Assembly: GCA_944389465.1 (NCBI GenBank)
Contig: CALXML010000005.1
Coordinates: 1 to 64,000, forward strand
Source: an uncultured Alphaproteobacteria bacterium
GTDB taxonomy: Bacteria; Pseudomonadota; Alphaproteobacteria; Rs-D84
DNA length: 64,000 bases
Direction of reading: 5' to 3'
Numbering within the stretch: position 1 is the first letter of the stretch; every line of letters begins with the position of its first letter. The notes beneath the pieces are model-generated. The model saw nothing but the letters and a program-made list of their open reading frames with translations. It made no database searches and had not been told where the DNA came from. Shown here piece after piece: positions 26,554-39,601 of this stretch. Both the position numbers and the translations under genes were made by a program.

Positions 26554-26579
26554 ATGCCCGTGTTGCGGGCATTTTTTTA
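26554..26579 (+). terminator. Terminator of valS-thioesterase
   Basis: ATGCCCG and CGGGCAT around TGTTG, followed by seven T. It lies six bases after the stop. Confidence 0.9.
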
Positions 26580-26801
26580 TTTCTTGCACCGACGTGCAAA
26601 CATCATAATAAACCCGTAATAAAACAGTTTTTCCAATATGTGCGCTGGTATTAATTGTTTACCACATTCATACCGTGCCAATTGTTTTTGTTCAATACCA
26701 AACATTTTTGCAGCATCATAACGTTTTAATTTTGCACTGCGCCGTGCACCACGTAATAAACGTGCAAAATATGCATTGTCCGCCAATATAGTTGCAGGCA
26801 T
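26577..26801 (-). CDS. Small HTH (XRE/Cro-like) DNA-binding protein
   Basis: A 74-residue protein with one helix-turn-helix: DAAKMFGIEQKQLARYECGK (residues 29-48) matches the XRE/Cro pattern, including Q, a small residue at the turn and RYE-G-K. The basic ends (RGARRSAKLKR, FARRCKK) fit DNA binding. A near-perfect AGGAGG lies five bases before the ATG. Upstream, on the same strand, lies a structured leader RNA with its own promoter and terminator (26827-26977). A second copy of the whole unit occurs at 39262-39601, where this gene is frameshifted. Function unknown; it may regulate itself or act on other loci. Confidence 0.8.
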   Translation of the reverse strand: MPATILADNAYFARLLRGARRSAKLKRYDAAKMFGIEQKQLARYECGKQLIPAHILEKLFYYGFIMMFARRCKK

Positions 26802-26826
26802 TTAATCCTCCTTTTTTTTGTTTAAT

Positions 26827-26977
26827 AAAAACACCGCCGTGATGAAGGGCGGTTGGAGGTTAAGAACTATCATATAAGTAGTGTCGTTTATTTAAATATA
26901 TCACGACCCTCCAACCATTGTTGGAGTTCGGGTTATATGAGAGGTTCTTACACCCCGCACTGGTAATCAACCAATGC
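26827..26977 (-). ncRNA. Structured RNA / attenuator-like leader of the HTH gene, copy 1
   Basis: Minus-strand RNA of about 150 nt, starting seven bases after a -10 box. P1 is a hairpin at 26957-26977. P2 pairs TAAGAAC plus an inner 8-bp helix (26933-26950 with 26861-26876). P3 is CTCCAAC/GTTGGAG (26909-26926) and P4 is GTCGT/ACGAC. It ends in a terminator (ACCGCC/GGCGGT, 26833-26853, then five U). GGTTGGAGG on the transcript (26908-26916) can also pair with CCTCCAACC (26851-26859), which overlaps the terminator stem by three bases, an antiterminator layout. The copy at 39453 preserves P2 by compensatory changes. I do not recognise a known riboswitch or sRNA family. Confidence 0.7.
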
Positions 26978-26983
26978 CCATTG

Positions 26984-27011
26984 ATTATAACATACATACA
27001 CCAAATTGCAA
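26984..27011 (-). promoter_or_regulatory. Promoter of the structured RNA, copy 1
   Basis: On the minus strand TTGCAA (27006-27011), 16-base spacer, TATAAT (26984-26989). The predicted start, about 26977, is exactly where similarity to the second copy begins. Confidence 0.75.
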
Positions 27012-27121: not shown

Positions 27122-27156
27122 AGAGAGGTCAATATTATATATGTATCTGCCCACCT

Positions 27157-27193
27157 TGTCATTGCGAGCCACGTTAGTGGCGCGGCAATCCAG
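27157..27193. repeat. REP-like palindromic repeat, copy 2
   Basis: TGTCATTGCGAGC and GGCAATCCAG flank a variable tip CCAC-GTTA-GTGG that forms its own hairpin. Confidence 0.85.
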
Positions 27194-27234
27194 TAAATAA
27201 AAAAGTTCCGCGTAAATACGCGGACGCGTGGCAA

Positions 27235-38990: not shown

Positions 38991-39028
38991 TGTCATTGCG
39001 AGCCATCGCAGATGGCGTGGCAATCCAG
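38991..39028. repeat. REP-like palindromic repeat, copy 3
   Basis: Same ends as the copies at 681 and 27157; variable tip CCATC-GCA-GATGG. Confidence 0.87.
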
Positions 39029-39106
39029 TAAATACAACAAAACCGCACTCCATCTTTGTCATTCCCGCATGACAAGAAAAGAATACCAGTTACCAGCAAC
39101 ATCCCT
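39029..39106. other. Spacer between two repeats
   Basis: Non-coding. It contains GTCAT-TCCCGC-ATGAC, a short hairpin that looks like half of another element of the same family. Confidence 0.4.
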
Positions 39107-39147
39107 TGTCATTGCGAGCCGTGCATACGCACGGCGTGGCAATCCAG
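39107..39147. repeat. REP-like palindromic repeat, copy 4
   Basis: Same ends; variable tip GTGC-ATAC-GCAC. It is followed by CGCAATGACAGG, possibly the inverted end of a neighbouring partial copy. Confidence 0.87.
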
Positions 39148-39261
39148 TAAATTAAGAACACCGCGCATCTTTGCCCGCAATGACAGGGGGCGCACTTTAT
39201 CTGCGTTTTATGGTGTTTTTACGCGTATTTAATAAAACAAACCCATAATAAAACAGTTTTT

Positions 39262-39429
39262 CTAATATGTACGCTGTATTAATTGTTTACCACATTCATA
39301 CCGCGCCAATTGTTTTTGTTCAATACCAAACAGTTTTGCGGCATCATAACGCCGCAGTTTTGCGCTGCGCCGTGCGCCCCGTAACAAACGTGCAAAATAT
39401 GCATTGTCCGCCAATATAGTTGCAGGCAT
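39262..39429 (-). pseudogene. Frameshifted copy of the small HTH gene
   Basis: Nearly identical to the HTH gene at 26577-26801 for its first 51 codons, including the HTH (DAAKLFGIEQKQLARYECGK) and the AGGAGG site. Loss of one G (CGCTGTATT here, CGCTGGTATT in copy 1) shifts the frame, giving IQRTY and a TAG instead of IPAHILEKLF. The remaining nucleotide similarity continues to about 39240, so this is a recent decay. The 55-residue product may still fold as a bare HTH. Confidence 0.8.
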
Positions 39430-39452: not shown

Positions 39453-39601
39453 AAAAACACCGCCGTGATTAAGGGCGGTTGGAGGTTAAGAACTATTCAA
39501 ACGATAGTGCCGTTTATTCAATATATTCACGAGCCCTCCAACCCTTGTTGGAGTTTTGTTTGAAGAGGTTCTTACACCCCGCACTGGTAATCAACCAATG
39601 C
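39453..39601 (-). ncRNA. Structured RNA / attenuator-like leader, copy 2
   Basis: Second copy of the RNA at 26827-26977. Identical segments are the 5' hairpin, TAAGAAC/GTTCTTA, CTCCAAC/GTTGGAG, GGTTGGAGG/CCTCCAACC and the terminator stem with five U. The inner P2 helix has changed on both sides (TTCAAAC with GTTTGAA here, TCATATAA with TTATATGA in copy 1), so pairing is kept while sequence is not. It precedes the frameshifted HTH copy. Confidence 0.7.

Follow-up and report, generated by a model that had tools for sequence, protein, structure and literature searches.

A C4/sRNA-Xcc1-like leader RNA with two exclusive folds in the alphaproteobacterial order Rs-D84: a candidate locus-specific antisense attenuator

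On the minus strand of the 64,000-nucleotide stretch of DNA analyzed here (the window), a structured RNA lies between a promoter and the gene of a small DNA-binding protein. The question raised by this locus was whether the RNA controls the gene behind it or is itself the product. The initial annotation had described, in this order, a promoter, an RNA with several helices, a terminator, AGGAGG, and a 74-residue XRE-like gene, and all of these elements were recovered where it had placed them. The RNA has two alternative folds, A and B. Its arms are labeled as in phage C4 RNA, where the target arms are called a1/b1 and a2/b2. The following features were assigned:

27011-26984, minus strand: promoter TTGCAA-16-TATAAT (TTGCAA 27011-27006, TATAAT 26989-26984)
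about 26977-26827, minus strand: structured RNA of ~150 nt
26957-26977, minus strand: 5′ hairpin P0; sister copies have variants of it
26944-26956, minus strand: P1 5′ strand GGGGTGTAAGAAC, arm a1; pairs with 26867-26856 and covaries
26933-26940, minus strand: P2 5′ strand TCATATAA, arm b1; private to the window copy
26909-26926, minus strand: P3 hairpin CTCCAAC-AATG-GTTGGAG, whose 3′ strand joins stem B in fold B
26908-26916, minus strand: stem B 5′ strand GGTTGGAGG, the P3 3′ arm; pairs with 26859-26851
26883-26907, minus strand: P4 hairpin with a conserved A/U-rich loop, in both folds; RF02221 has an equivalent hairpin
26866-26882, minus strand: P5 hairpin of fold B (ACTAC...ATAGT) with the P2 3′ strand in its loop
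26877-26870, minus strand: P2 3′ strand TTATATGA, arm b′, inside the P5 loop
26861-26867, minus strand: P1 3′ strand GTTCTTA, arm a′, from alignment pairing and covariation
26851-26859, minus strand: stem B 3′ strand CCTCCAACC, overlapping the base of the terminator stem
26827-26853, minus strand: intrinsic terminator ACCGCC/GGCGGT plus T run, from sequence, fold, and covariation
26807-26812, minus strand: ribosome binding site AGGAGG, from sequence
26577-26801, minus strand: ORF of the 74-aa XRE-like HTH protein (HTH_31, E 6.5e-5)
39456-39580, minus strand: second leader copy (112.8 bits with covariance model R1) with a different P2 code, TTCAAAC
39235-39429, minus strand: broken HTH gene 3′ of the second leader, 78% identical to the first HTH, with an internal stop

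The window RNA is predicted to fold at -55.4 kcal/mol, compared with a mean of -32.8 kcal/mol for shuffled sequences (z = -5.5; none of 200 shuffles equaled it). The protein behind it is only weakly XRE-like, its HTH_31 match lying below the Pfam cut-off. The Rfam check proposed in the initial annotation was performed on the window at gathering and relaxed thresholds and returned no credible family for the RNA. The second leader is intact although its HTH gene is broken, a case of gene decay following duplication. Similar palindromic stretches, GGATTGCC...GGCTCGCAATGACAAG, occur near both leaders (about 27150-27200 and 39010-39150) and look like a dispersed repeat.

The fold was analyzed in an alignment of 18 copies from the window genome, from which the variable linker between P2 and P3 was removed for model building only; 21 copies were compared by eye. 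Fold A consists of P1 (GGGGT plus an AAGAAC-type arm), P2, P3 (CTCCAAC/GTTGGAG), P4, and the terminator. Standard pairs fill 95.4% of its cells, and 15 of its 34 pairs have changed on both sides. The covariation score was 0.358 versus 0.125 after shuffling, with 0 of 500 shuffles as good, and pairing dropped to 46-50% when the partners were slid by one column. In fold B, stem B forms between the 3′ arm of P3 and CCTCCAACC, spans the terminator base, and encloses P4 and P5. The latter, a hairpin of the ACTAT/ATAGT type that is new relative to fold A, carries the 3′ arm of P2 in its loop. The two folds are incompatible at three places: P1 competes with P5, and stem B competes with P3 and with the terminator. 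An alternative pairing of the P3 3′ arm that overlaps the terminator stem had been suggested from the window copy, and it proved to be above chance: the 9-bp stem B is complete in 18 of 18 aligned copies, including some whose three segments all carry CTCCTGA in place of CTCCAAC. A parser that needs P1 resolved 128 of 192 copies, with a P2 of 5 bp or longer; 97% of these had a stem B of 8 bp or more, versus 6% for shuffled third segments, and P5 was found in 127. Folds A and B are both conserved and mutually exclusive. The predicted stability is -55.4 kcal/mol for fold A versus -46.8 kcal/mol for fold B. The RNA has the exclusive terminator and antiterminator folds of a riboswitch-type expression platform, with an overlap restricted to the terminator base.

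The window genome (G000) comprises 953,858 bases in 22 contigs and is 99% complete. A DNA search detected about 20 further copies similar to the window RNA, and the covariance model R1, built from the 18-copy alignment, detected 33 convincing ones. The Rfam model RF02221 (sRNA-Xcc1) added two copies of a second subtype missed by R1, which gives a total of at least 35. Among relatives, 44 of 59 genomes had R1 matches, with up to 43 copies per genome. The initial annotation had called for a covariance model and a search of related genomes; covariation was strong, and matches were obtained in 18 of 23 genera of the order Rs-D84 (176 of its 201 genomes), where copy numbers are lower bounds, the best candidates per genome having been scored. 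Outside the order, 13 genomes in a class sample of 385 had matches at E ≤ 1e-4, R1 E-values being rough; the copies in other alphaproteobacterial orders have the same layout and differ greatly in sequence. When named genomes were scanned by pattern, matches came from Candidatus Enterousia and from gut or "Rickettsiales" Alphaproteobacteria MAGs. Enterousia belongs to the GTDB order Rs-D84 and has a reduced genome (PMC12306168); to judge from the scan and from its size, the window genome is probably an Enterousia as well. A pattern match in Paludibacteraceae (L164) had no covariance-model match and was taken as chance, and the pattern search of IMG/VR found no leader copies. Some leaders stand in tandem with one terminator each (L145, L128, L138, L158, and L165). 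Two distant leaders, L220 and L221, have no ORF directly after the terminator, L221 with two successive copies; they are possibly free sRNAs.

All 27 P2 helices parsed in G000 differ from one another. Where G000 paralogs resemble each other in their downstream DNA, their terminator tails are 75-100% identical (mean 88%), but their P2 helices are only ~35% identical on average. In the HTH paralogs, 4-fold sites differ by 6-23% and P2 is unrecognizable. Some cross-species pairs retain an identical P2. Selection for orthogonality beyond chance was not seen among the P2 codes. With separate arms at every locus, control would be locus-specific.

The reading of the locus as a self-contained RNA-plus-HTH cassette was not supported by the analysis of its copies, as the same leader precedes mostly signal-peptide proteins along with HTH genes. 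By a strict signal-peptide rule, a home-made heuristic, 97 of 159 non-redundant downstream ORFs qualified, compared with 61 of 369 background genes from the neighborhood and 9 of the 47 genes in the window. The secreted proteins mostly belong to no recognized family, and some are cysteine-rich or trypsin-like; in distant lineages, outer-membrane-barrel-like and pilin-like proteins were recognized by eye. HTH_31 matches were obtained for 31 of the 51 non-secreted downstream ORFs, and in G000 HTH paralogs sit after several other leader copies. Unrelated gene families share one leader type, the distance from leader to ribosome binding site is consistently short for both classes of genes, and some leaders have no gene directly downstream. 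A -10-like box is most frequent at 30-34 nt upstream of P1 (89 of 165 leaders of the order), and window-type leaders carry a predicted promoter of their own. A secreted family starting with MKKHLLIAGL... follows G000 leaders L041-L044, L047-L050, L052-L054, and L056-L058; its start is near-identical and its later part hypervariable, so that it looks diversified. A diversity-generating retroelement was considered as the source of this hypervariability and rejected, since no reverse transcriptase was found in G000.

The window RNA had been described as not belonging to any known family. This stands for the window copy, which gave no Rfam match, but not for the family as a whole: RF02221 matches sister copies, and its published structure, in the alignments an outer stem, a hairpin with a conserved loop, and a second hairpin, equals fold B. 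With the RF02221 gathering threshold at 53 bits, the window copy was not matched and the G000 sister copies scored 49.6 and 38.6 bits; two distant relatives reached 44.8 and 44.1 bits, also under the cut-off. Across the order, 80 of 190 genomes had RF02221 matches at E ≤ 1e-4, mostly sub-threshold, with three genomes above the cut-off. In some genomes the matches fall at R1 places (G142 twice, G003, and G179). The stem B and P5 frequencies given above show the RF02221 consensus structure in the parsed copies. The matched copies of the order have upstream arms pairing with a′/b′, mostly a terminator, and mostly signal-peptide proteins behind them, including a PAP2 phosphatase. Classical sRNA-Xcc1 loci gave no match to R1. 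The relation of R1-type leaders to sRNA-Xcc1 therefore runs through intermediate copies, with convergence as an alternative.

Classical RF02221 loci of other Proteobacteria were analyzed for arms as well. Upstream arms of at least 8 nt Watson-Crick were found in 77% versus 8% of permuted controls, and a further arm copy of at least 7 nt at the start of the downstream gene in 62% versus 9%. The downstream genes are of the antirepressor type or encode SymE, and include Bro-N, KilA-N, P22_AR_N, Phage_pRha (Rha), and SymE; at the SymE loci L233 and L253, the arms are repeated ahead of the gene. At L233-L262, the upstream and gene-start arms lie outside the Rfam model and are unannotated. In these pairings, classical sRNA-Xcc1 loci follow the C4 arrangement of phages P1 and P7, with arms upstream and at the gene start. 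This suggests that Rfam's sRNA-Xcc1 represents the 3′ half of a unit that is longer and C4-like, and the family as a whole looks C4-like.

C4 RNA is processed by RNase P and represses an antirepressor gene by antisense pairing. The leaders share with it upstream arms a1/b1 complementary to a′/b′, and P1 and P2 covary. Rs-D84-type leaders do not repeat the arms as a2/b2 where the controlled gene begins (6.9% versus 4.8% in the control). One locus within the order, L268, consists of a Rha gene with an arm copy at the gene start, and therefore the phage form is present in the Rs-D84 lineage. The distant relative L224 has a weak match to the c4-a1b1 motif in its 5′ half (E 6e-4). A search with RF01695 (C4) was negative in all 114 genomes of the order, a weak negative given that the controls were silent too.

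These results can be combined into a mechanism that we put forward tentatively, as one that could well be right. Gut Alphaproteobacteria of the order Rs-D84 would have multiplied a domesticated C4/sRNA-Xcc1-type leader ahead of surface-protein and HTH genes, where it would act as a locus-specific antisense attenuator. In the nascent transcript, a1/b1 would pair with a′/b′, P3 and the terminator would form, and termination would be the default (OFF). If a1/b1 were occupied, most plausibly by an antisense RNA of the same code, the 3′ half would adopt the C4-like fold with stem B, P4, and P5, and stem B would invade the terminator and allow read-through. The architecture, that is the two folds, copy-specific arms, promoter, terminator, target classes, and relation to sRNA-Xcc1, is well supported at the sequence level. 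That a trans RNA, and not a ligand or protein, occupies a1/b1, and that the switch runs from OFF to ON, we infer. With a1/b1 blocked in silico, transcripts ending before the terminator showed 76% stem B instead of 7%, and occupation of a1/b1 is therefore a plausible trigger of read-through, provided that stem B forms before the terminator. In the full-length RNA, the same block raised stem B from 1% to 26% and lowered the terminator from 83% to 68%; in this model, antitermination may therefore be incomplete. No free antisense RNA was identified.

The same structures could be read in other ways. Fold B equals the sRNA-Xcc1 fold, and sRNA-Xcc1 was observed in Xanthomonas as an 88-nt RNA (PMC2996969). 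The C4-like RNAs of A. baumannii appear to be abundant and processed at a GGW site (PMC5320573), and certain leaders have no gene right behind them. By analogy with the Acinetobacter proposal, the terminated RNA might thus be the product, a C4-like trans antisense sRNA released by termination and perhaps by RNase P cutting at the GG with which stem B begins, with the downstream gene reached only by leaky termination. The consistently short distance to the ribosome binding site of two gene classes does not fit this reading, and in the predicted fold of the full-length terminated RNA a′/b′ are tied up in cis; we regard it as unlikely, though the strongest competitor. A riboswitch or protein-sensing attenuator, in which a ligand or RNA-binding protein at the P4 loop or the junction selects the fold for a whole regulon, would account for the two-state terminator architecture, the conserved unpaired residues of P4, and the unrelated genes behind one leader type. 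However, sRNA-Xcc1 contains a counterpart of the P4 motif, so that this motif need not be a ligand pocket, Rfam gave no riboswitch match, and a common signal leaves the complete change of P2 between recent paralogs unexplained. The copy-specific P2 arms and the link to C4/sRNA-Xcc1 favor antisense pairing over ligand sensing, and a sensor of this kind seems rather improbable to us.

It is very improbable that the leaders are passive, promoter-plus-terminator repeats that spread with duplicated genes and regulate little. Many copies do lie in recently duplicated gene families, but compensatory changes keep two exclusive folds across Rs-D84 and other alphaproteobacterial orders, and unrelated gene families have the leader in common. 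The antisense attenuator has a more far-reaching version, which we consider doubtful: each of the at least 35 leaders might be a private, self-reinforcing switch. A C4-like RNA produced by read-through or processing would bind a1/b1 only on new transcripts of the locus it came from and hold that locus on, so that on/off states would be heritable and independent. If so, dozens of surface proteins would undergo phase variation with no change in the DNA, and a code of phage immunity would have turned into one of cell-surface identity.

The fold is of a known kind (C4/sRNA-Xcc1), and the window copy is formally outside RF02221 and RF01695. What is new is the terminator-coupled leader form with private arms, its expansion across the order, and the set of surface-protein and HTH targets; no published report of such a leader system was found in the open-access literature. 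If the antisense attenuator is correct, an uncultured, genome-reduced order would possess an apparently order-wide control of surface proteins, with as many as 43 copies in a genome of about 1 Mb, and an RNA known from phages and integrons would have been converted to gene-by-gene control in the host. The arms at sRNA-Xcc1 loci also open the targets of this poorly understood sRNA family to direct testing.

Among known systems, C4 (RF01695) with c4-a1b1 (RF03163) shares with the Rs-D84 leaders the upstream a1/b1, the a′/b′ within the folded RNA, and a copy-specific code. The c4-a1b1 motif has been described (PMC2864571), a′ and b′ of the processed C4 RNA pair with the target mRNA, and the immunity RNAs of P1 and P7 are separated by a 4-nt change (both summarized in PMC5320573). 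Unlike C4, the Rs-D84 leaders lack a2/b2 at the downstream gene, have an added terminator, and precede mostly non-phage genes. With sRNA-Xcc1 they share the outer stem, a P4-like hairpin with a matching conserved loop, and a P5-like hairpin. RF02221 covers the 3′ half only, whereas the Rs-D84 unit adds upstream arms, P3, and the terminator, and its targets are mostly surface or HTH genes. The closest published facts are the C4-like sRNAs of A. baumannii (PMC5320573) and the sRNA-Xcc1/symE cassette of Xanthomonas (PMC12444791). In the latter the RNA also lies directly upstream of the gene, but the cassette is integron-borne and the gene encodes SymE. Like Group 1 of the Acinetobacter baumannii RNAs, the Rs-D84 leaders are multi-copy, phage-derived C4-type RNAs with variable specificity arms; Group 1 is described as sRNAs, whereas the Rs-D84 RNAs are terminator-bearing leaders ahead of genes, in another class and with an order-wide distribution.
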